The position numbers were made by a program, and so were the translations under genes. Below the pieces are notes generated by a model. The model ran no database searches and was not told where the DNA came from. It saw nothing but the letters and a program-made list of their open reading frames with translations. Shown here in pieces: positions 45,200-64,000 of a stretch of 64,000 nt of DNA (position 1 is the first letter of the stretch; each line of letters opens with the position of its first letter). The DNA is from Novipirellula herctigrandis (GTDB taxonomy: Bacteria > Planctomycetota > Planctomycetia > Pirellulales > Pirellulaceae), in assembly GCA_007859835.1 (NCBI GenBank), contig SJPJ01000001.1, forward strand, positions 2,478,318 through 2,542,317, given 5' to 3'.

Positions 45200-45648
45200 C
45201 GTATCCTTCCGACTATCCCAAAATGCCGCCGTATCCTTTCGTGCCGCCGTTCGATCCGCCCGGAAGCGAACCGCCCTACGATCCCGAAGACGACGACGGT
45301 CCAATCGTCCTTACACCGCTGCCGTTGCCGCCACCGCCGGTGTGGCCCGACGACTATCCGCCTGGGACGCCCGATCCCGGCCCACGTCCGCCGTGGTGGC
45401 CCGACGACTACCCTTGGCCGCCTCCACCCGAAGAACCGGTTGTGATCGAGTCACCGCCGCCGATTCACGTTTGGCCGCGACTGCCGCCGGACCATCCCTA
45501 TCACGTCCCGCCCGGCTACTCGGCTCCTGACAACTTGCCGCCAGGTCACCCCGGCGAAGCCTATCCTGGCATGCCGGATTATCCCGTCGTCCATCCCGGC
45601 GATTGGGGAGATGATTGGCCGAGCTATCCAGGCTTGTACGACGATTGA
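45196..45648 (+). CDS. Pro-rich protein (150 aa)
   Basis: 150 aa, about one third Pro with Tyr, Trp, Asp and Gly: YPSDYPKMPPYPFVPPFDPP, VWPDDYPPGTPDPGPR, RLPPDHPYHVPPGYSAP. No helix or membrane segment; probably extended or polyproline II. Its ATG overlaps the radical SAM stop (ATGA), so it is a candidate substrate or structural partner. It is the last gene of the morphogenesis operon before the terminator. Confidence 0.7.
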   Translation: MTYPSDYPKMPPYPFVPPFDPPGSEPPYDPEDDDGPIVLTPLPLPPPPVWPDDYPPGTPDPGPRPPWWPDDYPWPPPPEEPVVIESPPPIHVWPRLPPDHPYHVPPGYSAPDNLPPGHPGEAYPGMPDYPVVHPGDWGDDWPSYPGLYDD

Positions 45649-46957: not shown

Positions 46958-47841
46958 GTGAGACGGCCTTTCCGACTGAGTTCGGTCGCCAGATAGGCTG
47001 GCATGGTGTCCAGTTCCTCCGATCGCAGAAGTTCGACAAACTTCTGGTCCTCAACAAGCTGTCGAATGGCTGAGACGACAAACAACAATCGTGTTTCGCA
47101 GAGCTTCGACTTCTGGACCACCAGACGCTGTTTCGCCGACTCGGCTTGATATGTTTCCAGAAGTTTCTTCCCCGACACCACGGACTTCGCGCGTCTTGGC
47201 CCACTCCGCAACGACTTTCCATCAGTTTGTCGTTTCTCAATCAACCGTCGCGCCGCGAGAAGCTTCTTTCCACGCAGGTCGTTCGATTCGTAGGCTTCGG
47301 TCAACGCTCGTTGGATGTCATGATCGTCCGCGACCGCAATCGTCACGGCAACACTTACCGGAATCGGCCCTCGTTCCACCGCCATCACCAAGCGTTCCTC
47401 ACCTCGCTGAATCAGCTTGACGATTCCGCGAATGTAAGAAACCGCGAGATCAGTTTTCTTCGCAATATCAGCGAAAGAATATCCACGCTCTTTCAACGCT
47501 CCGATTTCATGAACCATCTCCACGCAAGAAGGCTTTCGCCGAGCCAGATTCTCCACCAAGCTCATCAACAACAGCTTGTCTTCGGAGACGTCAATCACGA
47601 TCGATGGGATTTCATTTTGCCCCAGCGTTTCATAGGCTTCGTATCTCCCTTGCCCGCAGACCAACAAAAACTCGTCATGGCTGCCCGGTTTCGGTGTGAC
47701 GGTGATCGGTTTCTTCAACCCGATGTTGGCGATGTTGTTGACGATCTGGCGAAACTTCGTCTGTCCTCGATCGCGGGGATTGACCACCGTAATCTTATCG
47801 AGGGGGATCAATTGGATTTCTTTTTCGTCGGGCGTATTCAT
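46954..47841 (-). CDS. ParB-like protein
   Basis: 295 aa. ITVVNPRDRGQTKFRQIVNN, FLLVCGQGRYEAYETLGQNE, LMSLVENLARRKPSCVEMVH and the HTH YSFADIAKKTDLAVSYIRGI are classic ParB/Spo0J features. No ParA ATPase gene is adjacent. It overlaps both triad neighbours by 4 bp (ATGA), so the three are translated together. It presumably binds DNA repeats; whether it assists excision/integration is unknown. Confidence 0.85.
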   Translation of the reverse strand: MNTPDEKEIQLIPLDKITVVNPRDRGQTKFRQIVNNIANIGLKKPITVTPKPGSHDEFLLVCGQGRYEAYETLGQNEIPSIVIDVSEDKLLLMSLVENLARRKPSCVEMVHEIGALKERGYSFADIAKKTDLAVSYIRGIVKLIQRGEERLVMAVERGPIPVSVAVTIAVADDHDIQRALTEAYESNDLRGKKLLAARRLIEKRQTDGKSLRSGPRRAKSVVSGKKLLETYQAESAKQRLVVQKSKLCETRLLFVVSAIRQLVEDQKFVELLRSEELDTMPAYLATELSRKGRLT

Positions 47842-49391
47842 GCTGCCACCTCGATTTTTCGGCGTTCGGACAACGAAGTGAAATAATCGAGACTGTCGAA
47901 TTGGTACGTGTCCAGGTAGACGCCGTTAGATTCGCACAACAGCAATCGCGGGGTTTGTATGTCCATGATCGGAAGTAGGTAATAGTCGGCTACCTGCTCG
48001 TTGGCAGCGTCCATCCGCACGAGGATCGTGATATCAGGGGCAACCTTCTGTTCGACGTTGATCATCCACCGCAGCGATCCTGCCTTGGTTTGCCGACAGC
48101 GAGATAGCACCATCGACGCACTGTATTCGCCATTGATCAGAAGCAGATCGGTGTCCACATCTTGGGTCACCGAAGCACCCGCTGCGCCCAGACGTGCCAT
48201 CACGTCTCTTATCAAGTCTGGGTGCATTTCGCGGAGCTTTTGATTGATCTCGATGTACTCGTAGTCTCGGTCAGGTTGATAGCCAGCGAGTCGATACGCC
48301 CGAATCAAGCTGCCGAACCGCGTGCGGTACGTCGAAGATGTTGGAGTGTTGTCGGCTGCGTCGATCAGGCCAGCGGACAGTGTGGGATTCTGTTCCATCA
48401 GCGACCGTAGGCAGGTAATCATCTCCTCATCGCTATAGCACTTGGCTCGCTCGCGAATGATCCCTTGTGCGGTGTAGAACAGCTCCTGACTGACGACGGC
48501 GTCGAACGCACCGTCTTTCCGAATCCAGATGTCTGGTTCGTTGCAAACGCGACGCTGTTTCAGTTTGAAGGATGTTCGGTTGTAGACATTATTGCCAATG
48601 TATTTCTCATTCGTGAGCAATTGGCGAATCGTACCGCGATTCCACAATCTCCCCAGATCTGTGTTGATCCCCTCTGAGTTCAATTGCTCTGCAATTTGTC
48701 GCTCGCGTTGTCCTTCGACGACAAACATACGATAGACGCGATTTACCGTCTCGATTTCTTGCTCCGGGCCTTTTACGAGTATGACACGATCCGTCTGCAA
48801 GCTCTTGCATTCGCCGCGAGCAAGCTGGGCCTTGGCTTCGCCTGCCTGGTCGATCAGCATTCGACGAAGCCCGAACCCGGCCGGACCACCTTGTCGGTAA
48901 CCGAGTTCGATCAATCTGCATTGCCCTTGGAAGACCTTTGTCGACAGCTCGCGACTGTACTCGCCGGCCATCGCCCGCTTAACGCTCTTGATGATCGTAG
49001 ACGTTGGCCCACCGTCGTTCTCGAACTGCTCGGCACAGTAATGCACCGAGATACCGGCCCGTTTGCAAAGATACTCGTAATAGGCGCTTTCGTCGGCGTC
49101 TTGAAACCGCCCCCAACGACTCACGTCGTAAACAAGAATCGCTTCGTAGTCGGCCACTCCATTCTGTACGTCTGCGATCAATGCCTGAAGAGATCGCCGG
49201 CCAGCGACATTCAAGCCGCTTTTTCCTTCATCGGCGTAGGTCTTCACAATCTCGAAGCTGCGCTTTTTTGCGTACTCTTGAATGATGTCGTCTTGATTGG
49301 CGGTTGAGTACTGCTGGTGTTCGGTTGACATCCGAACGTACTGCGCAGCTCGAACCAGTTTCGTTTCAGTTTGATCTGTGCTTGCATGCAT
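47838..49391 (-). CDS. Large serine recombinase
   Basis: 517 aa. The catalytic Ser is in RAAQYVRMSTEHQQYSTANQ (Ser22), followed by YADEGKSGLN, VYDVSRWGR and the GEYSRELS helix. The recombinase domain (INTDLGRLWNRGTIRQLLTN, EKYIGNNVYNRTSF) follows. Unlike typical phage integrases I see no Cys-zinc ribbon or long coiled-coil; instead the C-terminal about 200 residues are a different domain, with DLIRDVMARLGAAGASVTQD, then LLLCESNGVYLDTYQFDS. It may integrate the whole element or just the triad. The upstream region carries phased CGTTTGAT boxes. ATG 49391. Confidence 0.9.
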   Translation of the reverse strand: MHASTDQTETKLVRAAQYVRMSTEHQQYSTANQDDIIQEYAKKRSFEIVKTYADEGKSGLNVAGRRSLQALIADVQNGVADYEAILVYDVSRWGRFQDADESAYYEYLCKRAGISVHYCAEQFENDGGPTSTIIKSVKRAMAGEYSRELSTKVFQGQCRLIELGYRQGGPAGFGLRRMLIDQAGEAKAQLARGECKSLQTDRVILVKGPEQEIETVNRVYRMFVVEGQRERQIAEQLNSEGINTDLGRLWNRGTIRQLLTNEKYIGNNVYNRTSFKLKQRRVCNEPDIWIRKDGAFDAVVSQELFYTAQGIIRERAKCYSDEEMITCLRSLMEQNPTLSAGLIDAADNTPTSSTYRTRFGSLIRAYRLAGYQPDRDYEYIEINQKLREMHPDLIRDVMARLGAAGASVTQDVDTDLLLINGEYSASMVLSRCRQTKAGSLRWMINVEQKVAPDITILVRMDAANEQVADYYLLPIMDIQTPRLLLCESNGVYLDTYQFDSLDYFTSLSERRKIEVAA

Positions 49392-50327: not shown

Positions 50328-51401
50328 CTAGCGGACTTCAATCTCTGGCAACGCGGTGGATAGTAGTTCCATCGTCGAACGTGAGTCGAGAACTGAAAAT
50401 TGCTGCCATTTGCCGGTAGGCTCTCCGGCTAGTTGCAAGATTCTGATCGCTTGCTTCGGCGCAGGAAAAGTGATTTGAAGTTCGCTCGTTTCATGATCCG
50501 CGAGGATCACTTCGGGCTTTCCATTCATTCTGCCCAACGCGATGAGCAGCCAGTTCCTTAGGTCGTAGGTAGCAACCGAGTCGTTTCGGCAATTGAGAGA
50601 GATGGACCTCCCGTCACTTCCTTTGATCCGAAGTAACGAGGGAATCCAGTGATGTTCGTTCTGTCCAGGTTGAGCAGCCAAGTAGATACCATCATCAAGC
50701 TTGGATGGGGATGTCCAACGGCTGCGTTCCGGCTTACGCTCGCCTCCGAAAAACTCGCCCGACCTATGGTTTACTGCTAAAACCTTTGTCTCGCTGACAA
50801 ACAACGGACTGCCTTCCTGGTCGAGCTTGTTGAGATGCCAATTGAGAAGATCAGAGAGTGTGTCGAACTCCTGCGACGAATCAACCAACGACTTCCACTC
50901 CGGTTGCCCGAGCCAATCGTCGAACGATTGTTCACCCACTCCTATGTGGGCGAGGTCGTTTATGATGTCATCCGACGGACGAAAACGTCTCAAAAACTGG
51001 TTGGGATGATACGACGAAAAGCGATGTGTTTCCGTTGCGGTCGTTCCAAGTAGGACCGCATCCGTGTCGCTTAGTTTTATCCAACGCGACGGCATGGCAG
51101 AATAACCGCGTTGGTTCTCGACCTTCAAGTCAGCGAGCTCCCCGACGTCCACCATGCGTCCTGCTACCGATTGGATGGCCTTGTTTACGTCTCCCTCAAA
51201 ACCGGCAGCGATTAGGAAAGGTTCGATGGCTTTCCGTAGTTCACGTCGAGTCGCCAGCCCATGACGTCGTACTTCACGACGAATCAACCTGGCGATTCCC
51301 CATGGCGACGGGGCGGACTTATCGTCGTCGGATTCCAGATGGTCGGAAAGTCCGAGCTTGCCTGCGAAGCCTTCTTGATCGTAAAGCGAAATGGAGGTCA
51401 T
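50328..51401 (-). CDS. Uncharacterised protein of helicase operon (357 aa)
   Basis: 357 aa. The N-terminal about 90 residues (GIARLIRREVRRHGLATRRE, LRKAIEPFLIAAGFEG, VAGRMVDVGELADLKVENQR) look like a winged-helix DNA-binding fold. The rest includes SDDIINDLAHIGVGEQSFDD and SLNCRNDSVATYDLRNWLLI, alternating beta and helical segments without a motif I recognise. The ATG overlaps the stop of the NERD-helicase gene by one base, so it is translated with it. It may be the operon's sensor or DNA-targeting subunit; unproven. Confidence 0.7.
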   Translation of the reverse strand: MTSISLYDQEGFAGKLGLSDHLESDDDKSAPSPWGIARLIRREVRRHGLATRRELRKAIEPFLIAAGFEGDVNKAIQSVAGRMVDVGELADLKVENQRGYSAMPSRWIKLSDTDAVLLGTTATETHRFSSYHPNQFLRRFRPSDDIINDLAHIGVGEQSFDDWLGQPEWKSLVDSSQEFDTLSDLLNWHLNKLDQEGSPLFVSETKVLAVNHRSGEFFGGERKPERSRWTSPSKLDDGIYLAAQPGQNEHHWIPSLLRIKGSDGRSISLNCRNDSVATYDLRNWLLIALGRMNGKPEVILADHETSELQITFPAPKQAIRILQLAGEPTGKWQQFSVLDSRSTMELLSTALPEIEVR

Positions 51402-53143
51402 CAAACAAGCTCCTTTTCGGCACTTTGAATGGCGGCCTTAATGTCGGCGAGCATCTCTTTACCCGTGGCTAGGAAGTGAACGTGCGAACGGGCTCGAGTG
51501 CAGGCAACGTATAAATCGACGAGCGAAAATCCCTTCGAGATTCCATCCAGGTCATAGACCACCACAACGTCAGCTTCGAGCCCTTTGAAGCTTCGGGCGG
51601 TCGTGACCAAGATTCCTTCGTTGCGATTCCAGGCTCGCGTGTCAGTCGTTAAAGCGACGCCGGCAATCTCAGAAACGTCGGCGAGCGATCCGTTCTCGAG
51701 ACCACGCGGACCGATCAATACCAATTGGGACGGCTTGATGTCGTGTTGTGCGATCAAGTTTTCGATTGTTTTGCAGGCGATACCTTTCATCGCTGCCAGC
51801 GTGGGCACAGTGCTGATTGCCGGTTTACCTCCGAGCGGAGAACGCTTGAAGAACTTCGCGTCCGTTTTCGCGATCGTTGTGCTGGTGCGGGCGATCCAGC
51901 GACTATTGCGACAATTTCGACGCAAGCTGTATTTCGTCTGAAACGCGACTGGAGGCGTTGCGGGTGCCCACTCCCACAATCGTTGCACTGGATCGGCAAA
52001 AGCGAAGAGCGTGCCTTCTTCGGCGTTCTTCAATAATGCGCATTGAAGTACTTCCCACCAGCGGGAATGGAAATCTTGGGCCTCATCCATCACGATCGCG
52101 TCGTACTGAACCTCCTCGCCTTCTTCCATTGCGAGGTACGCCGCTTGTTCGATGAGATCAGGCACATCATCCACAAAGAACTTCGCGAGATCGCTGCTAG
52201 CGTCCGGCGGATCCCATTCAATTCCGGCGTCTTCGATGATTTCGCGAGCCAACTGATGAAAATGAGCGATCTTCAAACGCTTATCGAGCAAGCCTTTGTC
52301 AGAATGCCCATTCAGGCTACGGCGAAGGTGATCGGCAAGGTGTCGGTTGAAGCATATAAACAGCGTTCGCAGGTCATTCTTCGCCAAATGAACCGCTCGG
52401 TCAAAAGCGAGTTGCGTTTTGCCGGATCCCGCAACGCCAGAGACGTAGACCCGATTGTTTTCTTCGTACAGACCAGCGAGTAGTTCAATCTGCTCGTCGG
52501 TCATCTCTTGAATCTGTTCAAAAACATCGCTGGCGCTGCCAGCGATGGGACGAAACAATTTGAATTCAGGCAAAAGTGCAGTTGCCATTCGACGCCACTG
52601 ATGATTGGTCAGTGGAGTTTCTCTTTGGGGCCAACTAGCCATTGCTTTTTCAATCGCCACATCCATCGTTTCCATTTGGCGGCGAGACAGAATCAACGAC
52701 TCTTCTGCTCCTGGCGGAATGGCTCCGGTGTAGTTGTCGTGCGGGAACACAACAGCGTGACCATAGCTGTAGTGGTGCCCACATACATCGCCGGTGGTTT
52801 GCTTCTCGATCCGGTCAACGAGGTAGTGCATGCTGGCGCGTGCTTGTTTAAAGGGATCGGTGATGGGTTCGTAGCCGTGCTTCTTCTTTCGCTGCCAAAT
52901 CGCATTCTGGTAGCGAAGTTCGCCACCCTTGACCTCCAGAACCAACATTCCCTTGTTTTGGTGCAGGACGATGAAATCGGCTTCGCCTTCACGCAAAGCC
53001 CCATCGCGATCAGGACGCAACCACGGATACGAATGCAAGACCACAAAATCGTTTCCGAGCTGTTCTTTCAGCGCGCGGTAAACGATTCGTTCCGAATCGT
53101 ACGGAATGTCGTCGGGGTCGATATCGGGTCGCATGATTGCCAT
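51401..53143 (-). CDS. NERD-domain nuclease fused to SF1 (UvrD-like) helicase
   Basis: 580 aa. Residues about 15-130 form a NERD domain: GEADFIVLHQNKGMLVLEVK carries the Glu/Asp and Glu-Val-Lys residues expected of this PD-(D/E)xK-like nuclease. Walker A GVAGSGKT is at 236-243, IVMDEAQDFHSRWW is the DExx box near 347, and VTTARSFKGLEADVVVVYDL plus YVACTRARSHVHFLATG are UvrD motifs V/VI. NERD-helicases occur in plasmids and defence loci. It lies 32 bp downstream of the 2143-aa helicase gene and is the only gene in the operon with a plausible nuclease. Confidence 0.88.
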   Translation of the reverse strand: MAIMRPDIDPDDIPYDSERIVYRALKEQLGNDFVVLHSYPWLRPDRDGALREGEADFIVLHQNKGMLVLEVKGGELRYQNAIWQRKKKHGYEPITDPFKQARASMHYLVDRIEKQTTGDVCGHHYSYGHAVVFPHDNYTGAIPPGAEESLILSRRQMETMDVAIEKAMASWPQRETPLTNHQWRRMATALLPEFKLFRPIAGSASDVFEQIQEMTDEQIELLAGLYEENNRVYVSGVAGSGKTQLAFDRAVHLAKNDLRTLFICFNRHLADHLRRSLNGHSDKGLLDKRLKIAHFHQLAREIIEDAGIEWDPPDASSDLAKFFVDDVPDLIEQAAYLAMEEGEEVQYDAIVMDEAQDFHSRWWEVLQCALLKNAEEGTLFAFADPVQRLWEWAPATPPVAFQTKYSLRRNCRNSRWIARTSTTIAKTDAKFFKRSPLGGKPAISTVPTLAAMKGIACKTIENLIAQHDIKPSQLVLIGPRGLENGSLADVSEIAGVALTTDTRAWNRNEGILVTTARSFKGLEADVVVVYDLDGISKGFSLVDLYVACTRARSHVHFLATGKEMLADIKAAIQSAEKELV

Positions 53144-53175
53144 GTCTGTTATTTTCTAACCTTTTCTCAGGATTA

Positions 53176-56100
53176 TCATGGCAATTTCACCGGGTAGAAG
53201 ACGCCCCGGCGGACGATCCCAAGTGGTCTGCCAATGACTGTCAGCGATTCGGGAGCAACTTTTTGAGGCGTCGCCTTTGCGCTGGTTGATTGATACTGCA
53301 AACGAACTGAAATTCGTCCGTCAAATTCAGCCCATTTACACATCGCTAACGTGGCGCGTGCTCTCGTTGCTTTAAATGCGTTTTCGGATGAGCGAACTAA
53401 CCTTAACCGTTGATCGTGCAAATCTTGGCTCGCAGCTTCGGTAACTCGTTCAAACGCGATGACAGCACCTGATGCCAACGCGACATCTTTTCCATCAACT
53501 TTGAACTTGGCTTTCTCGAGCTGCGACCCGTCGATCTCCAGAAGGAATACGCTCGACGGATCGAAACCCGGAATCGCGATATCAGCACTCGCGATACTCT
53601 CTTCACTTTCCTTGGAAAGCGAATCAAAGCGATACATCTTTATGCCAGTATCAGAGCGTTCTAACCCAGCGGGTAGCGGTGCGTCGGGCGACGGCCGTGA
53701 TCCGACAGTCGTAACGCACATGTCAATCGCAGAGGGCAACGCACGCTTTACTCTCAAGTGGTCAATCGGTGCCGCGTTGTTTCGCCCGGCCGCGTAGGCT
53801 GCTTCGGCTTCGGAGGTAGCTGGAAGCCGTGGCATGAGAGAGTGAGACAGCACGATCTGTCGATCGCCCATCGAAGTGATGATTAAGCATCCGTCGTTTT
53901 GAACAACTTCGTGATCCATATCTCTCAGATCGACAGCGATCGTTTTAAGAAGCTGAGCCTCGGTTTTCTTATCTAGCCGTGGGCGTTCTTGCTGGCCGAG
54001 AACATGCTTCAGCAGCGCGGAACCCAGTTCGCGATCGAGATCCTGGTGCAAGAATCGGTTGCCATAGGATCGCAAGCATTTGTAACACGAAGACTCGCAA
54101 TCACAGCCATCTAGTAAGTCGATTGCTTGACGCAAAATTGCTTCTGGATCGTTGACCGCTGCTTTGACAAACCCGGCACCGCCTGGCGTTGTGTCATAAA
54201 GATAGACATCTACTTCAGCACCACTACGGCCTTTGTCAGTTTGAGCCGCTCGATACTCGGCCCCGATGTTCGATCGGTCAATTTCAAGCTTGTCCGAAGC
54301 GCAAATAGCCAGTGCTTGAGCAACTGTGGTCAAGCTGATTTTTGCGAGCGTTGAGCCAGGCGGAAGTAAAACATCGCCGCCCATTTGGAAACGGAACAGA
54401 GAAACGTCGGAAATGAACTTGGTGCCCAAACTGACGATTTGCGTGAACCCTGTGCAAGTCGGCCGATCACGATGGTTCGGATATGGCTTCGGGTGATTCG
54501 CTCGGTTGTTCAAGTAAGAACGCTCTTGATCGTGCCATCCTTTCGGCTCGATTCGACCGCATCTTAAACAATAGACAAACCCTCGGTTCTTCAAGTCCTC
54601 GCTGCCGCGGTTCGTCAAGAAGAGTTCCTCCTTCTTGGTCCAAACCGTGAAGCTTCTCTCACCGAATGAACTGGTCTGGCCGATTGAATCACCTTCTCGG
54701 AAAGGAGCATTCAATTTTGCCTGAGTAGGCCGTGTGTAATCGGGTGGTTGATCGACTGCCAGTTCTTCATCCATGTCTGCTGGGTGAGCAAATCCGGGTG
54801 GCACGATCCAATAAATAGCAGGACCAAGCCCGCCAGGCTCGTTGCACGACGGGCAATCCAGAACCTCACGTTCGTAATGCTCGCCGCCATGCTCTTCGAG
54901 TTTTGCGTAGCCACAACGATCGCACTCGAAATAGAGCATTCGTTTTTCCCATGCTTTGTCGCGTTCTCCGCGCATCGGGCTGTAGAGGGCGAACGAGTAG
55001 TGTCGCTTGCCGTCGATGAAGACTTCGCGACCGGGCGCGTAGCTGGAAAGTGCTTGGTCGAGTCCCCGTTGCGGTGCGTACTTGATAACGCTGCGATGTG
55101 CTGTTGACCGGTTACGATCAAATACCGTCATGCTGACGACATCGGTTGGGAACGCATACGACGGTAGCGTTGCGGTCTCGAACAAGCGATCAAGCAAATT
55201 CAGTGTTTGACGGCCAGCTTCAGGCGACTCAGACACATCAGTGTCGGTATCACTGTCGCTACTGGATTTGATGGAAGCATCGGGGTCATCATCTCCGAAA
55301 TCTTCATCGTCGTCTGACCAACTGAATGCTGATTCATTTCGCTCCTCTGGTGACTCTTCAGTCTCGGGCGGTTTGTAGTCGCAGTTAATTTCGGTAAGGC
55401 GAGCCAGAAGTCGAGCAGGAATCTCGTTGATGTCATCGGACTCCGTGCTTTGCAAATATTCTTCTGGAACGATCGAGCGTATTGCCGCTGCGATTTCTGT
55501 TTCTTTCGCCGCCAACCAAGCCTGCAGCCCACGAAAACTGAACGCTTCTTCATCGCCGGTGCGAAAATCATCAACGCGGCCGAGAGATGAAAAGATGTTT
55601 GAAGTCGCGGCGGATTGTTGGTCATCGCGGATCCGCTCAAGCTGGAACATACTCAAGAGCAACGCATAGCCGTGCCGACGCACGATCTCGGAGTTCTCGA
55701 GATTAAGAACCGGGTCAGTTACCGGACCGCTAATCATTTCCGCCGGTCGTTTGAAGTATCGCTGATCGTGGGTACCTTGGTCTGCGTAGGTGATCACCGT
55801 TGACAGGGATGACCCACGCCGGCCGGCGCGTCCAGCACGCTGTTGATAATTCGATCGGTTCGGGGGAACGTTGCGGAGCGAAACCGCGGTCAAACTTCCG
55901 ATGTCGATACCGACCTCCATCGTCGTTGTGCAACTAAGCACATCGACAATGCCGCCAGGCTCATCACCAGGACCAAGAACGTCGAGATCCTGAAATCGCA
56001 TCTCGTGCCATTCAGCTCTGGAAAACGCATCTTGTGCGTCGATGGCTCCGATCGCGGCCGTGTGCTCCTCAGCAACAAAGGGGCGAAGGTCGCTTGTATT

Positions 56101-59100
56101 TTGGTCAACGTCCTTGCGATAGAAACCTTTTCGCGTCATGAAGACGTTGTCCAGCGTCTTGTTCTGTTTGAATAGCGCTCGCAATGAATCGGTCGAGCTG
56201 CATTCAGGACAAACACCCAGATAGAACGGATGATTCGGGATCGCAAAAGTGCAAACTTCACATCGAACCCAATCAATAAAACTGAGGTCAACGGCCAGCC
56301 TTTTTGGATCTACCAAGAAGCCATCGGCACGACCACTTGTACCGAGTCGTTCTTGAAAAAATCGGTTCCAAGGGCCACCGCCTTGCTGCCCACCAGCCAA
56401 CTGTTCTTTGTAGAACGCATTGCCAACGCGGGGCTTCATCAGTTTTTCAAACTTCCCGCCACTGACTCTCAATCGGATTCCGCTGTCTTTGTTGCCGATC
56501 CACTCACCGGGCGTACCTGGCAAACGAATCGCTCTTTCGCGTGCCATTCTTAGCAGCCAAAACTCCAAGAGCCCTCGCCGTCGATCCTCGTCGGATTCGA
56601 TCGAATCGGGTTGTTCGGGAGCCGGCAATTGGTCGAGCGTTTCTTGAAGGTAGTCGGAAACAACAGGAACCAGACAACCAAGCGCCAAACTCTGGACACC
56701 GGAAAGTGGATTGAAGAGAACCTCATACAACGAAATCAGGATGTCGGCCGGAGTACGCTCTGCAATTTGCGACGATGCTTCTTCAAATGCTTTACGCTTT
56801 GCTGTCTTCGATTGACACAGCTTCAATGCCAAATCCTGGTCTTGGTAAAACGTCCTCTGCTCAGTGTCTTTCAACTGCGGTCGCAGCCCGACGCCCTGCT
56901 CACTGGCCCCACACAGCAACGCCAGATAAACGTGTTCAATCGAGACGCGTTTTGTCTCACCGTCGAACCAACGGTTTGCAACGTAGCGAAGCCCGTTGAT
57001 AAGCAAGGGACGAACGGCATCGCGAAGCGAATTTGATTTCAGCTTGCCGGCCAGTCGCGAAGCTGGCTGCCGGCCATCCGAGAAGACCAGCAGTTTACGT
57101 CCCTGGAGGGCCGTTTCATTTCCTGGTGTTGGTGGTTGCGACATCAGCTGGGCTGAAACGAGATGCTGGAATGGCTCATCACCCTTTGTCGCCATATTAG
57201 AAATGCCTGAGAAGCGATCTCGACATTTCGGACACTTGTCGAAGAGGCCGGCCTTTCGATTTCCCGCCGGGGCTTCCGCTGGGATGTAGACCGGGCGTGA
57301 TGTTTGCGAATCAACAATTTGATCAAACAGTCGTCCCGTGACGGTCTCCAAGTTCATTTCTCGACTGCGAGTCGCATCGTCATCGTCTGAAGCATGCTCT
57401 TCGGGGTCATCCAGGCAAAGATGAATCGGAACGACCGCATCCATCGCATCGTCAACCTCCCCGACATCCTCGGACCATAGATAGTTTGGACGACGAACGC
57501 TCTGTGCATACGCCTGAAACATCGCCGTTCCACAGTTTCGACACGCCAACAGTTCAAATGTGCGGCTGCCACACTCGCATTCACGACAGGGCTGGACATA
57601 CAGTTTTCCAGTAACGCCTTGCCCACGTATTGAATCTGGCAATGCGGAACAATTGGGGTCGCTGCATGCCCAGATCCCAGGAATCCCGCGAAAGAATCGG
57701 TGGACTCGCGCCGCCAATAGTGGCGTGTCTCCTGGCTTGTTCCGTGCCATTGACGCGGCTTCTACCAACACATCTGTTACTTTCTGAGCCTGGAGAGCCT
57801 CGCACTGCGGGAACAAGCGCATGGCCAATTTGCGAGTTTCTTGTGCGCCCAGATTATCACCTGTTTCGGTATCGCCATCGCAAGGAGTACCGGAGGTCAG
57901 ATTTATCAATCGGCCGGTCACGCCAAGATCGACCAAAATGTCATAGAGAATTCGTGAGAGACCGAAGTGCAAACCCTTTTCTGTTGAAGGTTCGCTATCG
58001 TCACTCGCCACGACGCATTCGACATACCCCTCGTTGCGCCGCGCGCTTATCGTGACGGCGGAATCAGAACAGTCAAGTTCAACGACCGTCAGATACGCAT
58101 TGTCGGTTTGTCTTTTTCCTCCATTAGCGATCTGGATCGTTTCTTCGACCAATTCGCCGCCTTCGATCATCCCAATTATGGTGACCTTGCATCGAGCTTT
58201 CGCCGACTCGCTCCCACTGGACTCGATGGTGTAGTTGGCCGGCGTGAGCGGTCGGCTTGAGACGCTCAGTAGCGGAACGATCGACTGGAAACGTTTCGTC
58301 GCGTCTTCCGAGAGCAAATCAGTCAAGGACACTTGAGCCATCGCACTGGCCAACTCAGCATCTCCGGCACTCGACGGTACCTTGGCTTCTTTCGTACCTT
58401 CAAGCCACTGAAATCTACTGCTCTCCGTTCCAGTCAAACCCGCCGCAAACTTCTTAGCCTGTTCACCATCCTCGAACGACGCACTAGTGGTGATGACCTG
58501 AAACTGATCGGTAGAAAGTTCCAAGCGATGACGCAAGCGGCGAATGAGCATCGCCACCTCAGTACCTTGGGCACCACGGTAAAGGTGAGCCTCGTCAAGA
58601 ACGAGAATGAATCGCTCCTTCGGATTGGCAACGAAATAGTCGCGAGTCTGCTGGAAGATTGAACGTTCAATTGGCCGCAACATCATGTACTCGAGCATCG
58701 AGTAGTTCGTCACCAACAAATCCGGTGCTGCCGCCTGAATCTCGTGACGCGTTAGCAGTTCGGTGTCATCAGGATTTTCAACGGCTCGTCGTAGATTCCC
58801 GTTTGCATCCTTCCACACTCCACCAGATCCGAGCCAGCGAGCCAGACCAGGATCATCTCCGATATCCTTTGCCGGCCACTTGCCCATCTCTCGCATGGCG
58901 TCCAGCAGTTCGATTGCATCCCCATCGCCGTCAGCGGCCCGACGTTCCATATCCACAAAGAATCGAAGCCCGGCCAGTTTCTGTGAAATACGTTTCGTGT
59001 CATCAGGAATGACACCTGGAAACGGAGTCCGGCTCGTATAGCGCCCGAATTTCACTGGCCGGCCGCCGTGTTGATTGAACCAATCGCGTGTTGCTGGCGC

Positions 59101-59607
59101 GCCAAACAACCGTCGCAAACGCGAAAGCTGGTCGTTAACGAGTGCGTTCATTGGATAAAGCAACAATGCCCGAACGGCTCGCGTCTTAAATGAACTGGGT
59201 GACTGCGCCGCCTCGCGGCCAAGCCTGCCCATGATGGGAAGCAAGAACGTTTCGGTTTTCCCCGAACCAGTGCCGGTGGTTACGATCGTGTGCTTCAGGT
59301 CATCGCCCAGCACGGCTTCCAAGGCTTGAGCTTGATGCTCGTATGGCTGCGGAAAGACTACCTTGCCACCGGATTTTGTCGCAAGAAACGACAGCAACTG
59401 TTCGGCTTCGGCCGGAATACTCAGCTCACCGTACGGCTTGCCGATTGCATAGCGTGCCGAGCTTTCAATGAACGGCGAGTGGCAGAGCACCTCGGGTTGC
59501 TCCAGCAATTCTCTTCGCAGCCCAACCAATTGAGGGTCCGACAAGTGATATGCAGATTCAATGTAGGCGAGCAGTCGCTTTCGAATGGATTCCAGTTCGT
59601 TATACAT
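53176..59607 (-). CDS. Giant DEAH helicase with DUF1998-like C-terminus
   Basis: 2143 aa. The helicase core has Walker A TGTGSGKT (111-118), ALLLYPMNALVNDQLSRLRR, VTNYSMLEYMMLRPIER, FILVLDEAHLYRGAQGTEVA (DEAH 338-341), VLSCTTTMEVGIDIGSLTAV and NYQQRAGRAGRRGS (motif VI). Several Cys pairs suggest zinc ribbons (about 630-680, 1110-1135, 1560-1600). Near 1800-1860 YDTTPGGAGFVKAA and CDCESSCYKCLRSYGNRFLH match the DUF1998 signature. The size and domain order recall Druantia DruE, or DISARM DrmA and DrmB in one chain. It presumably loads on foreign DNA with the adjacent SNF2 protein. Confidence 0.88.
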   Translation of the reverse strand: MYNELESIRKRLLAYIESAYHLSDPQLVGLRRELLEQPEVLCHSPFIESSARYAIGKPYGELSIPAEAEQLLSFLATKSGGKVVFPQPYEHQAQALEAVLGDDLKHTIVTTGTGSGKTETFLLPIMGRLGREAAQSPSSFKTRAVRALLLYPMNALVNDQLSRLRRLFGAPATRDWFNQHGGRPVKFGRYTSRTPFPGVIPDDTKRISQKLAGLRFFVDMERRAADGDGDAIELLDAMREMGKWPAKDIGDDPGLARWLGSGGVWKDANGNLRRAVENPDDTELLTRHEIQAAAPDLLVTNYSMLEYMMLRPIERSIFQQTRDYFVANPKERFILVLDEAHLYRGAQGTEVAMLIRRLRHRLELSTDQFQVITTSASFEDGEQAKKFAAGLTGTESSRFQWLEGTKEAKVPSSAGDAELASAMAQVSLTDLLSEDATKRFQSIVPLLSVSSRPLTPANYTIESSGSESAKARCKVTIIGMIEGGELVEETIQIANGGKRQTDNAYLTVVELDCSDSAVTISARRNEGYVECVVASDDSEPSTEKGLHFGLSRILYDILVDLGVTGRLINLTSGTPCDGDTETGDNLGAQETRKLAMRLFPQCEALQAQKVTDVLVEAASMARNKPGDTPLLAARVHRFFRGIPGIWACSDPNCSALPDSIRGQGVTGKLYVQPCRECECGSRTFELLACRNCGTAMFQAYAQSVRRPNYLWSEDVGEVDDAMDAVVPIHLCLDDPEEHASDDDDATRSREMNLETVTGRLFDQIVDSQTSRPVYIPAEAPAGNRKAGLFDKCPKCRDRFSGISNMATKGDEPFQHLVSAQLMSQPPTPGNETALQGRKLLVFSDGRQPASRLAGKLKSNSLRDAVRPLLINGLRYVANRWFDGETKRVSIEHVYLALLCGASEQGVGLRPQLKDTEQRTFYQDQDLALKLCQSKTAKRKAFEEASSQIAERTPADILISLYEVLFNPLSGVQSLALGCLVPVVSDYLQETLDQLPAPEQPDSIESDEDRRRGLLEFWLLRMARERAIRLPGTPGEWIGNKDSGIRLRVSGGKFEKLMKPRVGNAFYKEQLAGGQQGGGPWNRFFQERLGTSGRADGFLVDPKRLAVDLSFIDWVRCEVCTFAIPNHPFYLGVCPECSSTDSLRALFKQNKTLDNVFMTRKGFYRKDVDQNTSDLRPFVAEEHTAAIGAIDAQDAFSRAEWHEMRFQDLDVLGPGDEPGGIVDVLSCTTTMEVGIDIGSLTAVSLRNVPPNRSNYQQRAGRAGRRGSSLSTVITYADQGTHDQRYFKRPAEMISGPVTDPVLNLENSEIVRRHGYALLLSMFQLERIRDDQQSAATSNIFSSLGRVDDFRTGDEEAFSFRGLQAWLAAKETEIAAAIRSIVPEEYLQSTESDDINEIPARLLARLTEINCDYKPPETEESPEERNESAFSWSDDDEDFGDDDPDASIKSSSDSDTDTDVSESPEAGRQTLNLLDRLFETATLPSYAFPTDVVSMTVFDRNRSTAHRSVIKYAPQRGLDQALSSYAPGREVFIDGKRHYSFALYSPMRGERDKAWEKRMLYFECDRCGYAKLEEHGGEHYEREVLDCPSCNEPGGLGPAIYWIVPPGFAHPADMDEELAVDQPPDYTRPTQAKLNAPFREGDSIGQTSSFGERSFTVWTKKEELFLTNRGSEDLKNRGFVYCLRCGRIEPKGWHDQERSYLNNRANHPKPYPNHRDRPTCTGFTQIVSLGTKFISDVSLFRFQMGGDVLLPPGSTLAKISLTTVAQALAICASDKLEIDRSNIGAEYRAAQTDKGRSGAEVDVYLYDTTPGGAGFVKAAVNDPEAILRQAIDLLDGCDCESSCYKCLRSYGNRFLHQDLDRELGSALLKHVLGQQERPRLDKKTEAQLLKTIAVDLRDMDHEVVQNDGCLIITSMGDRQIVLSHSLMPRLPATSEAEAAYAAGRNNAAPIDHLRVKRALPSAIDMCVTTVGSRPSPDAPLPAGLERSDTGIKMYRFDSLSKESEESIASADIAIPGFDPSSVFLLEIDGSQLEKAKFKVDGKDVALASGAVIAFERVTEAASQDLHDQRLRLVRSSENAFKATRARATLAMCKWAEFDGRISVRLQYQSTSAKATPQKVAPESLTVIGRPLGIVRRGVFYPVKLP

Positions 59608-59622
59608 GGCGTGGAGGTTTCC

Positions 59623-62600
59623 TTACCGAGGTTTATTTGGTTTGTCGGTGGTGGTTGATTCTTGTTGAGGCGGCGACGCCGTAGCAAACTCGCTTGCCGT
59701 CGGGCTTGCCTCATCACCGTCAACAGATTCCTCGGGAATCGGCACGGGGTCATCTTCCATCTCAATTACTGCCGTGCATTGCAAAACGACCTTCGCTTGG
59801 CCAGGATTGCTGAGGTGGTCGAGACTTCGCTCGAGAAGTTGTAAACGCATGTCACGACTTCGCTCGGTCAATTGCAACTCTTCTAGAAATTGAAGCAATC
59901 GAGGTCGGTAGTTGGCCGCAATGGCTTGCTGATTTGCCTCCGAAGCGTTTTCTTCTCGTTGCGCGATTTCATTCTCGATCTCGTGGACTGCTGCTCGCAA
60001 CGCAAGCAGACGGTCTTCAGACTCAATCCGTATTACCTCCGAGCGCTCTTCAAACGCCTCGATTGCGGCATCGAGTCCAATGGCCCAAGTCGATTTTGTT
60101 GTTTGTGCGATCTGACCAATACAAAACGATGGCAGTTGCTTGATGTAGTCGGCTGGCAGTGGTTTGTTTTGGATGTTTGGGCGTTCCTTCTTGTGCCAAT
60201 CGGCACCAAAGAGATCCGCAGCGATTTGCTCATCGCAAGGTTCCATTCGATTGCCTTGCCCTAATCGCCAAGCCAAGGACGCCAAGAACGGCGGTCGCTG
60301 AAGACGCACGAATCGTTCGTCTGACTCCAAGCCAGCCTTTAGGTTCGCTAGTACTCGGCCTCGCATGAACTCGCGTCGGGTTCCGGATTTTTCGGGCAGG
60401 TCGTGAAGCAAAACTTCTGTGATATTAGCACTGTCGTACTCTGCAGCCGGATCGACGAACCCCACACCACACAGGTAGCTGCCGCGATCAAGCTCGGTTC
60501 CTTTGGGATAATGTCGTTGGCCCAATGCATAGACGGTCATTCCAAGCGGTTCCGCATTCTTTCCCGCTCGCTCAAACGTTTGGACGAGGTCCTTATGCAG
60601 TGGTGACCCGAAGGACAGAAATTGCAGCGTCTCGTGTCGCAGATTTCCGTCGTGATCAGTGCCGGTTTCAACCTCAATTCGGGGCGGACGTTGGATATTC
60701 CCGCGAGCGATAAAGAACGGCGGGAAAGGGTGCTTTTTGTCTTGAACGGAATCCAGCTTCAGTTTCGCCGTTTTGCTTTGCCCAAGCGTGTAGAAAGTTC
60801 GGCTTCGCCTTCCATCAGCTTGTTTTTCGCCCCTGAACGTAACGATGTTGATCCACTTGTGGTTGCGCAGCATGTTGACCCATCGCGACAATGCTTCTTC
60901 GCTAGGTGATGTTACGTAACCAAGAGAACGGTTTTGCCGAAGGATTGGACCGAGATCCTTTCGGCGAGCAACTTGCTGATGAAGTCTGATCGCATTTTCT
61001 ACGGTCCAGCGAGAACCCGATGGCACGGCAGTTTCCTTTTCCCTGCCTGATCGTCTGGGGACATCCTCAACTTCATCGCCTTCCGTATCGAACTCGAATA
61101 GCATCTGGCCTGCACCTGTGCCGGTCGAGATTGCCTCCGGTAAGGTTTTGGCATTAATGCTTGTTGAGATTTCCTCCAGCAATCGGCGTTCCGGGTCGAT
61201 CGCCGTTTCAAAGATGCGGTATTCATCTAGGACCTCTTGGACGCCGATCGTCGGATCACCCTGCCGATGAAGTGTCAAAATACGAATAGGCTTTGGACGG
61301 CTATTGGGCCGTTCGGGGTCGACGAATTCACGACCGAGTCGATCGACGCGGCCAATCCACTGGTCAACATCCTCCGGCTTCCACGGAAGCGAATAGAAAA
61401 TGAGTGCGTCGGCGGCCTGCAAGTTGTAGGACTGACGATACGCATGATGTGCGATCAAGAGCTGAGCATCGGACTCCTCGAATTCTCGTAGTTTCGATCC
61501 CGCCAGATTGCGTAGAGTTTGCGAGTCGAGTTCTTCGTCTCCATCATCGGACACACGCCGGTCATCGGTCGCAATGACGGTTTTCAGTCTGACTCGCCGC
61601 TCACGCGGGCCAACACGCGGCACTCGCCAAGACAGTTCATCAGCCAGCTCCTCTACCGTTACATTGTCCTCGGCAGCCAAGACGACTTTACGCGTTGGGT
61701 CTTCCTGCCAGAAACGCACCAACCAATCGACCAGGCAATCCAAACGCGAATCCGCATTCTCACGCCTTGAAAGCTCGCTCATCTTCACCAAACGCGGCTC
61801 ATGCTCTGCTTCCCCACGACGCAAACGAGTCAATCGGTCCTGAAGGCTTTGACCACCTAGGGACGATCGCTGGAGCAATGAAGACGCCGCCTGCAGATGC
61901 TGGGGTTCGTGATGCTCTTCAAGGAATTCGCCAACGTAACTTGACGCTGCACGCATTCGGTCCCGCTCTGCGTTGGTCGGTTCGACGATCATTCGCTTCG
62001 GATGGCGACGCGGCAGATGGTCTGGGAAATCCGTGCGATACGATCGGAGGACATTGCGGTACTTCCATCGTGTATCCGCCAGCACTCGAACGCGACGAAA
62101 CTCAGCGAACGATGAATATTGCTCGGAAACGCCTTCGGGAACGATAGCCGTATCCAGAGTGCCGTTTGTTACGTTTGCGCTGTGATTTTCAAACTGTTGT
62201 TGCACAAGCCGAAGAGCAGCGTCGCTTAAGTCACCAATGCGCGAACGGGTCCAATCCAAGTCCTCGTGGTTAGCGTCTCCATCGGCTTCTCTGCGGGCTC
62301 GCTCGATCCGTTCTGGCTCGAGGATTTGAAGCAACTCAAGGAATCTTCGCATGTCGCGCAAGTTCGGCGAAGCCGTTAACAACAGCAGACGCGGGAAGTC
62401 GGCCGAGTTTGCAGCGACGAAACGAAGCGTGTCCTGCTTCAGGCTTTGCGGCTCATCAAGGATCAGCAAGTCAAACGTATCAGGTGAAAGTGTCTCCGAG
62501 GGCTTCACCATGGCCGAATCATCGACAACGTCAAACCAATCCTCGCCGACCATCTCATCGCCCAGCTCAGCTGTGCATTGTGCCCGCCACGCAATCTCCT

Positions 62601-62904
62601 CGATCCACTGGCTCTGCAATTCTGCTCGCGGCACAACGATGCGAACTCGCAGCTTTCCGATCTGTAGCCTAAGGGCGTTCGCAACCATCAACGCTTGAAT
62701 CGTCTTTCCCATTCCCACTTCATCCGCGATCAGATGGTGTATCCGAGCGGATGAAAGAATTCGCTGTACATTTTGGACTTGATGGGGATAGAACTGGGCG
62801 CGAATGCCAGATGCACCGCTGATTGGGCAGGATAGCTGTTCGACTCGCCGCCGCAGCGCCTGTACGCCGTGCATCAGCAATTCAAGGTCTTCGATTTCCG
62901 GCAT
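59623..62904 (-). CDS. SNF2/HepA-type helicase of defence operon (DrmD-like)
   Basis: 1093 aa. FYPHQVQNVQRILSSARIHH, then DEVGMGKTIQ (Walker A, 61-68), give the SNF2/HepA start. Motif II is LLILDEPQSLKQD (DEPQ at 150-153, instead of the usual DEAH/DEAQ). YSLPWKPEDVDQWIGRVDRL (about 525-545) is motif VI. A long C-terminus (about 600-1030) is unassigned, with a charged helical region near 950. Of known defence proteins, DISARM DrmD is most similar by architecture. It is 2 bp downstream of the right-edge gene and 15 bp upstream of the giant helicase. Confidence 0.85.
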   Translation of the reverse strand: MPEIEDLELLMHGVQALRRRVEQLSCPISGASGIRAQFYPHQVQNVQRILSSARIHHLIADEVGMGKTIQALMVANALRLQIGKLRVRIVVPRAELQSQWIEEIAWRAQCTAELGDEMVGEDWFDVVDDSAMVKPSETLSPDTFDLLILDEPQSLKQDTLRFVAANSADFPRLLLLTASPNLRDMRRFLELLQILEPERIERARREADGDANHEDLDWTRSRIGDLSDAALRLVQQQFENHSANVTNGTLDTAIVPEGVSEQYSSFAEFRRVRVLADTRWKYRNVLRSYRTDFPDHLPRRHPKRMIVEPTNAERDRMRAASSYVGEFLEEHHEPQHLQAASSLLQRSSLGGQSLQDRLTRLRRGEAEHEPRLVKMSELSRRENADSRLDCLVDWLVRFWQEDPTRKVVLAAEDNVTVEELADELSWRVPRVGPRERRVRLKTVIATDDRRVSDDGDEELDSQTLRNLAGSKLREFEESDAQLLIAHHAYRQSYNLQAADALIFYSLPWKPEDVDQWIGRVDRLGREFVDPERPNSRPKPIRILTLHRQGDPTIGVQEVLDEYRIFETAIDPERRLLEEISTSINAKTLPEAISTGTGAGQMLFEFDTEGDEVEDVPRRSGREKETAVPSGSRWTVENAIRLHQQVARRKDLGPILRQNRSLGYVTSPSEEALSRWVNMLRNHKWINIVTFRGEKQADGRRSRTFYTLGQSKTAKLKLDSVQDKKHPFPPFFIARGNIQRPPRIEVETGTDHDGNLRHETLQFLSFGSPLHKDLVQTFERAGKNAEPLGMTVYALGQRHYPKGTELDRGSYLCGVGFVDPAAEYDSANITEVLLHDLPEKSGTRREFMRGRVLANLKAGLESDERFVRLQRPPFLASLAWRLGQGNRMEPCDEQIAADLFGADWHKKERPNIQNKPLPADYIKQLPSFCIGQIAQTTKSTWAIGLDAAIEAFEERSEVIRIESEDRLLALRAAVHEIENEIAQREENASEANQQAIAANYRPRLLQFLEELQLTERSRDMRLQLLERSLDHLSNPGQAKVVLQCTAVIEMEDDPVPIPEESVDGDEASPTASEFATASPPQQESTTTDKPNKPR

Positions 62905-62906
62905 GT

Positions 62907-64000
62907 CTACGTCGCCTCCTTGATCGTCTGAGCTGTATTCAACCGAGCGTTCTGTTCTAATCGCCAGGCAACAAACGCTCCCGCGCGTGCCACCGGACGG
63001 TCATGTAACAATTTCTCTAACACGGTTTCCCAGGGTTGTTTTCGTAATCGTTCGGGATAAATCAGGAGATTCAACCAGGTTTGCAATTCACTGGTCGCCC
63101 ATGTTTGTCGACCTCGTCCGCGACCCAATGAACGACGTATCCAACTGTGCAAGTCCGAAGCACAATCCGTGATGCTCATTTCCGACACGTGCCACGCCAG
63201 CAATTCGTCGCCAGAATCGGCGGGAATAAGTAGATCAGCCAAATGAGCACCACAGAGACGCTGATTCGCGTGTCGAAGAGATGTAGTCAAGGCTTCGGCA
63301 TCCACCATGACGGTGTCGTCATCAATCAAATACTGAAAGATCGAATCAAGCGGTTCAGCATCGTCTGCTTCGATTTCGGAAATGGAACCGTCCCACCAAG
63401 AATCGGGAAGAACTTGGTCAAACTCCGCAAGAACAATCGCCGGCAGCGAATCAGGTAAGGAGCGTTCGTCCTCCGATGGTGGTTGAAGCAGATCATTTCG
63501 TTTTGACTGACACTCCCACCAAATTTCGACTGGGTTTGCTGATTCGATTTTGCAAAACTCGCGTTGCTTGTGAATCCAGTTAGGGCCGCAAACGCTGTGC
63601 AGAATCCAGGCCCGAATTGCTTGGGCAGCTCCGACGCGATTGAATTCTGCCGTTAGCGACGAACTGCTTGCGGATGAAAGCTGCAAATACCTTTGAGTGA
63701 TGGATCGCAGACCCGCGTTGTCGCCAACATCATCCATCTGCCTGAGAAGACGCTTCGGCGACAAAAGCTGACGCTGCAGCCGCGAATCGCCATGGACGCC
63801 CACGCGGGCATCGAAGTGCAATTCGTTGCCGTCCCGGTCCAACGCGATCGAAATGAACGGATCGCCCTTCGTTGGTTCGTCAATCCACGTACCGTTGATG
63901 ACACATTGCCGGCGAACTTCAAATGGCCCATCGTCGCTGACGGCCAGGGGAATACCGTCTTCGTCGTGTTCCCACCAAAGCGTCTGTAGTTCCGCTTCAA
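62907..64000 (-). CDS. Uncharacterised protein of defence operon, 5' end beyond window
   Basis: The frame is open from the stop at 62907 to the right edge, at least 364 codons; a TTG at 63842 is not a convincing start because protein-like sequence (WWEHDEDGIPLAVSDDG, then WIDEPTKGDPFISIALDR) continues upstream. Visible features are Trp-rich helices (AQAIRAWILHSVCGPNWIHK), an acidic block (EADDAEPLDSIFQYLIDDDT) and a basic end (ASDLHSWIRRSLGRGRGRQT). I do not recognise the family. It is 2 bp upstream of the SNF2 gene and probably co-translated with it. Confidence 0.8.
   Translation of the reverse strand, partial: EAELQTLWWEHDEDGIPLAVSDDGPFEVRRQCVINGTWIDEPTKGDPFISIALDRDGNELHFDARVGVHGDSRLQRQLLSPKRLLRQMDDVGDNAGLRSITQRYLQLSSASSSSLTAEFNRVGAAQAIRAWILHSVCGPNWIHKQREFCKIESANPVEIWWECQSKRNDLLQPPSEDERSLPDSLPAIVLAEFDQVLPDSWWDGSISEIEADDAEPLDSIFQYLIDDDTVMVDAEALTTSLRHANQRLCGAHLADLLIPADSGDELLAWHVSEMSITDCASDLHSWIRRSLGRGRGRQTWATSELQTWLNLLIYPERLRKQPWETVLEKLLHDRPVARAGAFVAWRLEQNARLNTAQTIKEAT

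Follow-up and report, generated by a model that had tools for sequence, protein, structure and literature searches.

Druantia and DISARM have been connected through their helicases: a preprint (PMC12458937), in its accessible part, calls ARMADA the missing link between the two, and speaks of unappreciated diversity among Druantia types I and II and of many uncharacterised DISARM-like classes. ARMADA type II is reported there to consist of three helicases and a methyltransferase, with all four genes required; TALON, in the same preprint, couples a YprA helicase to a NERD nuclease, though in combination with TOTE proteins. In the case of Druantia type III, the accessible portions of two further papers describe a sensor and a helicase-nuclease that acts on intermediates containing single-stranded DNA (PMC13192584), with activation by a minor tail protein (PMC13316683). 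Here we describe a five-gene operon from Novipirellula herctigrandis, located at the right end of a 64,000-nucleotide stretch of contig SJPJ01000001.1 (G000:C1:2478318-2542317, hereafter the window). We consider it likely that the operon encodes a defence against phages that belongs to the Druantia type I lineage but does not have its canonical DruA-DruB-DruC set, and that also comprises an SNF2 helicase, a NERD nuclease-helicase and a large protein of an unnamed family (gene1). No description of this five-gene set was found in a literature search that left supplementary files and most subscription papers outside its scope, and some of the loci below may be listed in the supplements of PMC12458937.

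The contig runs on beyond the right end of the window, and gene1 was completed by extending it. The genes, with lengths in amino acids (aa), are:

62907..64000, minus strand: gene1, 3' part in the window (open reading frame in the window 62907-63998, 5' end outside), unnamed family
G000:C1:2541224-2544361, minus strand: gene1, whole gene, 1045 aa (contig extended to the right)
59623..62904, minus strand: SNF2-family (RapA/DpdE/BrxHII-like) helicase, 1093 aa (from PADLOC, domain scans and motifs)
53176..59607, minus strand: DruE of the Druantia type I class (YprA-family DEAH helicase with MZB/DUF1998), 2143 aa
51401..53143, minus strand: NERD nuclease domain (PD-(D/E)xK) fused to a UvrD-like superfamily 1 (SF1) helicase, 580 aa
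50328..51404, minus strand: DruD-like protein, 357 aa from ATG (358 from TTG)

Read 5' to 3', the order is gene1, SNF2 helicase, giant DEAH helicase (DruE), NERD-SF1 helicase and DruD-like 357-aa protein. The first four genes are separated by gaps of 2, 15 and 32 base pairs (bp), and the ATG inside a TGATG is usable as the start of the DruD-like gene, giving 357 aa and a 1-bp overlap with the NERD gene. Open reading frame calls and junctions agree with the initial annotation, which had seen five nearly contiguous minus-strand genes with these spacings, the first an unknown cut at the window edge. On the extended contig this gene has 1045 aa and carries no Pfam, NCBIfam or PADLOC name. Its TTG start may be too early, since matching in close relatives begins near residues 17-24. 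No methyltransferase was found among the five genes.

The 2143-aa helicase contains the Pfam domains DEAD, Helicase_C and MZB (DUF1998), with helicase motifs and zinc cysteines intact. Among PADLOC families it scored 1524 bits with DruE1, followed by DruE2 (654), DruE4 (629), DruE3 (581), DpdJ (111) and DrmA (48). As judged by these scores and by the tree described below, it is a Druantia type I DruE; the DrmA- and DrmB-type regions previously read in one chain are the normal DruE architecture, and not a DrmA+DrmB fusion. The 357-aa protein, formerly listed as unknown, matches PADLOC DruD1 at 43 bits (E value, E, 5.6e-12), and its family profile aligns with E. coli DruD in hhalign at E 1.5e-4, which by profile similarity makes it a distant DruD. 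A structure model of the protein contains a predicted winged helix at about residues 34-119. No Foldseek match to this model was better than E 0.05 and none was confident at full length, and a sequence search of the family against the PDB returned designed helical repeat proteins alone (E 0.002-0.03).

The SNF2 protein has SNF2/ResIII helicase domains with intact Walker A and motif VI, motif II reading DEPQ, and its nearest PADLOC families are DpdE (99 bits), BrxHI/BrxHII (69) and DrmD (65). The fourth protein combines NERD and UvrD-type helicase domains, is nearest to RTasNERD-Hel in PADLOC (195 bits), and has catalytic, helicase and Walker residues that are invariant in 6/6 aligned rows; K72 is the NERD lysine. 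The domain scans thus agree with the initial calls of an SNF2-like helicase, a DEAH helicase with DUF1998 and a NERD-SF1 helicase.

Twelve loci of the window type, termed group C, were collected from Planctomycetota and Alphaproteobacteria: the window, Stieleria, G130, Rhodopirellula SM50, R. maiorica, R. europaea, Gimesia SAT87, Planctomycetota KLAP164, Leisingera S132, Paracoccus versutus, ERR599030 and UBA11397. The neighbouring genes do stay together across genomes, with complete or partial copies of all five in 9 of the 12 loci. The single-operon order gene1-SNF2-DruE-NERD-DruD was fully seen in the window, SM50, Gimesia and KLAP164. Because the order is intact in three relatives, and because gene1 and DruE co-occur in the order-wide sample described below, the operon is more than a chance arrangement. 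Elsewhere the genes are partly cut: those of R. maiorica and R. europaea are each spread over two contigs and interrupted at contig ends, the ERR599030 contig stops inside NERD, before DruE, and UBA11397 consists of a 4.4-kilobase (kb) contig with gene1 and SNF2 pieces, its genome giving no DruD match. In R. maiorica, SNF2 is present as two open reading frames, and two extra genes (550 and 160 aa; L118:1784-3919) lie between NERD and DruD; partial relatives of the 550-aa gene lie close to the systems of Stieleria and SM50.

The distribution of gene1 is patchy. It was detected in 4/296 sampled genomes of the order and in 2/392 genomes of the phylum (the window's own genome included in both counts), as well as in 11 plasmids and 3 viral contigs. 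The four genomes of the order that carry gene1 are the same four whose summed DruE matches exceed 1000 bits. With a DruE cut-off of 1e-60, below which weaker matches were not listed, G181 and G256 also passed, with weaker DruE matches (best piece 211-239 bits) and without gene1. Across 84,980 species genomes at least 126 places were confirmed, a lower bound as the scan used one short peptide pattern. The best 80 of these 126 places were annotated, using profiles built from loci already collected. In 71/80 loci a YprA-type helicase gene lies near gene1, the median separation being about 1.1 kb and the largest 6.0 kb; seven of the other nine end at contig edges, and L081 and L100 are without a YprA helicase in roughly 10 kb.

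A first labelling divided the 80 loci into 56 of group A, 10 of group B, 5 of group C and 9 unassigned, with L034, L048 and probably L032 reassigned to group C on later evidence. Group A has the layout (DruA)-gene1-DruD-DruE, often followed by a PD-(D/E)xK gene. Within this group, DruD was detected in 49/56 loci, DruA was adjacent in 24/56 and SNF2 occurred in 0/56; a nuclease-like gene (own profiles post440 or NERD) follows DruE in 29/56, five of the 56 loci having fewer than 900 bases left past DruE. One of these nucleases was identified as PDDEXK_1. On a Nitrosococcus plasmid the order is DruA-gene1-DruD-DruE, with 720 bits for DruA, 490 for DruD, 2068 for DruE and no match for gene1, and gene1 therefore occupies the place that DruB/DruC have in E. 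coli and P. putida. Group B, found in Alphaproteobacteria (10/80 loci plus two plasmids), is DISARM-like, with gene1-SNF2 divergent from UvrD-DrmA-DrmB-NERD. All 10 loci have gene1, SNF2 and DrmA-like and DrmB-like genes, 9/10 have UvrD and 7/10 have NERD. The DruD profile matches the start of 8 of the 12 UvrD proteins from these loci and plasmids (E 9e-14 to 2e-5), although the weakest such match, in L037, has no single good stretch.

The DruE tree included 10 rows of group C, 17 of the 56 group A loci and two ARMADA rows only (ARMADA II and an ARMADA-I-like helicase), which served as root. This was a quick tree assessed by the Shimodaira-Hasegawa approximate likelihood-ratio test (SH-aLRT) only, with long branches flagged. 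Group C forms one clade (SH-aLRT 100) and group A another, and the two are sisters (100). Together they adjoin a supported group made up of the E. coli and P. putida Druantia I sequences and one haloarchaeal DruE. Druantia III, the Meiothermus DruE and the YprA helicase of another locus from the window's genus (L140) fall outside. By its helicase, the window system on this tree belongs with Druantia I.

The same tree weighs on a DISARM subtype, in which DrmA and DrmB would be fused in one chain, the SNF2 protein would stand for DrmD, and NERD would sit in DrmC's place, a reading we find very improbable. The scores of the SNF2 protein with DrmD (65 bits) and of the helicase with DrmA (48 bits) point in its direction, and on the Rhizobium TA1 plasmid and in similar loci, relatives of gene1, SNF2 and NERD occur alongside true DrmA (682 bits) and DrmB (282 bits). 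However, the helicase scores 1524 bits with DruE1 and is placed beside Druantia I, the SNF2 protein scores DpdE and BrxHI/BrxHII above DrmD, and neither DrmC nor a methyltransferase was among the matches listed for the five genes, the upstream HsdM being part of a divergent hsdRMS set. DISARM membership was thus ruled out by profile scores and the DruE tree. The earlier suggestion that NERD replaces the phospholipase D nuclease presumes descent from DISARM, which does not apply to the helicase. The initial annotation had further described an operon resembling, but not matching, DISARM or Druantia. It was right that neither is complete here, and it missed that the helicase is DruE type I and the last gene a distant DruD; the DISARM resemblance fails for this operon's helicase but survives in gene1, SNF2 and NERD-helicase, whose relatives sit with real DrmA/DrmB elsewhere. 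Its proposal of a new subtype or system fits a helicase-rich, defence-type operon that is plausibly a new subtype.

An ARMADA-like system that has lost its methyltransferase, with gene1 in the place of PglX, would account for the SNF2, YprA and SF1 trio, these being the three helicase kinds of ARMADA II, as described in PMC12458937 and as present in the E. coli ATCC 8739 locus. The YprA protein nevertheless groups with Druantia I and not with E. coli ARMADA II or the ARMADA-I-like planctomycete helicase (two ARMADA rows), no PglX match was found among the operon proteins, and DruD is present. We therefore regard such an origin as very improbable.

The remaining gene trees divide the groups differently. 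In the gene1 tree (55 of 84 rows, long branches flagged), groups B and C are split from group A at 100, and group C is not a clade. In the SNF2 tree (20 rows) and the NERD tree (18 rows), groups B and C lie on opposite sides of a branch with support of 100/100. By gene1, then, the tree places the window system closer to the DISARM-like loci than to group A, and SNF2 and NERD-SF1 are shared with those loci as well.

Conflict is also apparent among the closest relatives. At the DNA level, the window and R. maiorica are 91.4% identical in DruE, across a 6.5-kb stretch that opens 24 bases ahead of the SNF2 stop codon and runs to where the contig ends, compared with about 72% in gene1 and, in SNF2 beyond its start, patches near 58-61% only. 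The corresponding proteins are 95% (DruE), 72% (gene1), and 50% and 35% (SNF2 pieces) identical. With SM50, identity is 81% in gene1 (middle 95%, end 48%), 41% in SNF2 and 67% in DruE, and the nearest SNF2 to that of the window is from Gimesia (66%). DruE unites the window with R. maiorica at 100/99, a pairing rejected by gene1 in the approximately unbiased (AU) test (p 1.9e-5). SNF2, in a tree without R. maiorica, unites the window with Gimesia at 99/98, and this is rejected by both DruE (p 0.003) and gene1 (p 0.019). A window plus SM50 pairing is not rejected by gene1 (p 0.27), and the window's nearest gene1 row differs between two gene1 trees. The conflicting trees and identities therefore indicate that operon genes have been swapped among relatives, leaving different histories within one operon. 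In three of five close-relative comparisons (SM50, R. maiorica and R. europaea, the last over a 175-aa piece at 30%), SNF2 is the least identical of the five genes. With Gimesia and KLAP164, DruD and gene1 identity is as low as that of SNF2 or lower, and hypervariability of SNF2 and of the gene1 end as a general rule was dropped, as it holds in part only. The divergence of SNF2 and gene1 may reflect phage pressure.

Neither PADLOC nor NCBIfam models matched the 1045-aa gene1 protein, and Pfam gave sub-threshold noise only; it represents a large protein family named in none of the three libraries scanned. A sequence search against the PDB found nothing. A structure model was available for the SM50 protein, about 82% identical to that of the window, with a mean predicted local distance difference test score of 78.5 and a predicted template modelling score (pTM) of 0.46. 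The model is helical at residues 2-248, mainly beta at ~270-730 and helical again at 744-1026. Foldseek matched it to immunoglobulin (Ig), fibronectin III and macroglobulin-type beta domains, all with low TM-scores (the best E values being 2e-3 for the PDB and 3e-4 for viral proteins), and no confident full-length match was obtained. This predicted layout agrees with the description of DruH in the accessible part of PMC13192584, where N- and C-terminal helical regions flank Ig-like domains and DruH diverges more than its DruE; a solved structure of DruH is available as PDB 9tud.

We compared gene1 with DruH from E. coli ATCC 8739 using hhalign, yielding E 0.063 and a score of 28.3 that narrowly beat 60/60 shuffled decoys (highest 26.6). 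The same test with unrelated profiles gave E 0.14 (DruD family), 0.31 (DruC) and 0.47 (DruB), and the similarity of gene1 to DruH is suggestive only. A fusion of DruB and DruC was rejected, given the lack of profile similarity at these values and of any PADLOC match. A search for DruH in the relatives and 39 other genomes, run with no positive control, returned nothing.

By analogy with Druantia III and ARMADA II, on which the following scheme is modelled, gene1 is proposed to be an infection sensor or scaffold. It would recognise an infection product, as DruH probably does a phage protein, and license the complex. DruD, with its winged helix, may hold DNA or bridge subunits, while the SNF2 motor and DruE would move along phage replication or recombination intermediates and open them, and the NERD-SF1 enzyme would degrade the exposed strands. 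As there is no methyltransferase among the five genes, self would probably be spared by DNA structure or sensor gating and not by DNA marking.

We infer a defence function from the DruE1 and DruD1 scores, the DruE clade, the gene set kept in 9/12 loci, the intact motifs, the defence neighbourhoods described below, the patchy distribution and the layout of gene1. Several observations weigh against this assignment. The gene1 layout is predicted from the model of the SM50 relative, with a pTM of 0.46 and low-TM fold matches; sequence homology between gene1 and DruH is not established, hhalign being suggestive only; and the sensor role of DruH itself is termed indirect by its authors in the accessible part of PMC13192584. 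One relative, G130 (L016), is without the NERD gene. Three proteobacterial members keep a long DruA nearby (584, 645 and 1029 bits), so the absence of DruA is not constant in group C. Finally, gene1-SNF2 is convergent to the remaining genes in Stieleria, Leisingera, Paracoccus and ERR599030, and two co-inherited modules are therefore possible.

Such an arrangement would make gene1-SNF2 and DruE-NERD-DruD separate defence modules that travel together. Besides the convergent halves, the conflicting gene trees within the operon are consistent with it, as is a short gene1 remnant upstream of DruE in Stieleria (L017:8993-9493), where the convergent half holds a full gene1 (L012:6982-11565) with an N-terminal extension and a sub-threshold GYF_2 match. 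On the other hand, a YprA-type helicase is in the same locus as gene1 in 71/80 cases, and group A has gene1 without SNF2 (0/56), so that gene1 goes with DruE and not only with SNF2. We consider two independent modules unlikely, and continue to favour a single five-gene system of Druantia type I lineage.

A broader proposal is that gene1 belongs to a general family of infection sensors that plug into both DruE and DrmA/DrmB engines, with homologous SNF2 and NERD-helicase effectors. We put this forward tentatively, judging it somewhat more apt to fail than to hold. If true, a single modular immune machine would have DISARM and Druantia as its alternative chassis, and its phage range would be retuned by the trading of DruE, SNF2 and gene1 among operons. 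The accompaniment of both engine types by a large unnamed family and two helicases provides another link between DISARM and Druantia besides the helicase. Were gene1 the sensor, infection recognition by Druantia-I-like and DISARM-like systems would be directly testable by gene1 swaps. The differing histories within one operon also offer a natural recombinant set for mapping specificity, in contrast to Druantia III, whose partner trees agree with little mixing according to the accessible part of PMC13192584.

Defence-related genes surround the operon. To the right, the strand of the operon also carries an EACC1-type caspase gene (G000:C1:2544425-2545945; L004:5425-6945), 63 bp upstream of gene1. 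It was considered as a sixth component and discarded, as no relative lies beside the other group C loci compared. Further upstream and divergent from the operon, an RtcR-like CARF/sigma-54 activator is directly followed by hsdR, hsdM and hsdS (L004:7311-14399; G000:C1:2546311-2553399), a neighbourhood that fits the order of CARF then type I restriction-modification genes reported in the accessible part of PMC11090510. Another ten proteins, scanned as far as about 35 kb past the right end of the window, include type I methylase and specificity parts, a weak Leo-type match and PDC-S18; the last, a PADLOC candidate family, is matched at 433 bits about 28 kb right of the window end (L005:11815-12618). 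A complete DISARM, Druantia or Dpd locus, looked for in the adjacent sequence, was not encountered: no gene of these systems was among the PADLOC matches listed for the 16 proteins scanned across about 33 kb on the right-hand side. Neither the window nor the roughly 35 kb that follow it on the right contained a DruA-like open reading frame at E up to 10. In SM50, the operon is directly followed by PglW (1533 bits) and, about 10 kb after it, by PglX (1205 bits), and in Gimesia, a CRISPR array with 63 exact 36-base repeats is directly downstream (L119:6271-10804).

These surroundings also bear on a DNA-repair or housekeeping operon built around a YprA/MrfA helicase. YprA/MrfA proteins act in excision repair, as noted in the accessible part of PMC12458937, but the operon is patchy (4/296 genomes of the order), it is flanked by CRISPR, Pgl and restriction genes, and its helicase is in the Druantia clade; we regard a repair role as extremely improbable.

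To the left of the operon, a serine recombinase, single copy in the genome, is followed by two RepB/ParB-like genes (window 46058-49391). A similar triad (31-35% identity) is located about 20 kb beyond the Stieleria system (L161:8481-11815), and the triad may mark a mobile island. Window 37100-45648 contains a gene block that shares 88-95% identity with a block beside the Stieleria system. A shared unique integration site was considered and dropped, as the block is a repeated cassette, of which G121 has two copies at different places, one beside type I restriction genes.

Three further kinds of locus were observed. The IMG/VR contig L159 carries DruA-gene1-DruD-DruE with adjoining RecT-like and exonuclease-like genes (judged by eye), which suggests that this gene set is carried by a prophage or satellite. 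On two haloarchaeal plasmids (L126 and L128), DruA-DruE1 occurs with other partners, in L126 of 484 and 608 aa by our own gene calls, the 608-aa partner being weakly DruD-like; this set is another unnamed Druantia I variant. In the genome of the window's genus mentioned above, a YprA helicase of 1943 aa is followed by a GajB/UvrD-like 706-aa protein that matches the NERD-helicase profile (L140:7403-15351), perhaps another unnamed variant.

Set against described systems, the window operon is distinct from DISARM in having, instead of separate DrmA and DrmB, one chain that scores best with DruE1 (DrmA 48 bits). The DrmC phospholipase D nuclease is not among the matches listed for the five proteins or the scanned upstream genes, and DrmMI/DrmMII methyltransferases are not in the operon, the upstream HsdM belonging to the divergent type I system. 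With ARMADA type II (E. coli ATCC 8739) it has in common the trio of RapA-like SNF2, YprA and SF1 helicases. That system differs in its PglX methyltransferase, RelE-fused SF1 helicase and other YprA clade, and gene1 and DruD are not described for it in the accessible part of PMC12458937; among the window operon proteins there is no PglX-like methyltransferase, and the YprA helicase lies outside the ARMADA clade in a tree with two ARMADA rows only. Druantia types II and IV combine DruF with DruM/DruG or with DruL (type IV according to the accessible part of PMC8565338), and no such match is listed among the operon proteins. Druantia type III (DruH, of the YjiT family, and DruE) likewise pairs DruE with a large protein whose helical ends enclose Ig-like domains, as described in the accessible portions of PMC13192584 and PMC13316683, but has two genes only and a DruE3 outside the type I group, and the gene1-DruH sequence relation is suggestive but not significant.

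Druantia type I (druABCDE; E. coli FREC5 and P. putida pKF715A) has the same DruE lineage and a DruD distantly related to that of the window. The window system lacks DruA (DUF4338; none at E<=10), DruB and DruC (no match to gene1), adds gene1, SNF2 and the NERD-SF1 helicase, and its DruE exceeds that of E. coli by about 300 aa. Group A, unnamed and Druantia-I-like, shares gene1, DruD and a sister DruE clade, but has no SNF2 (0/56), an adjacent DruA in 24/56 and a nuclease-like gene in 29/56. In the DISARM-like group B, gene1, SNF2 and the NERD-SF1 helicase are homologous to those of the window system, while the engine consists of DrmA and DrmB instead of DruE, accompanied by an extra UvrD helicase.

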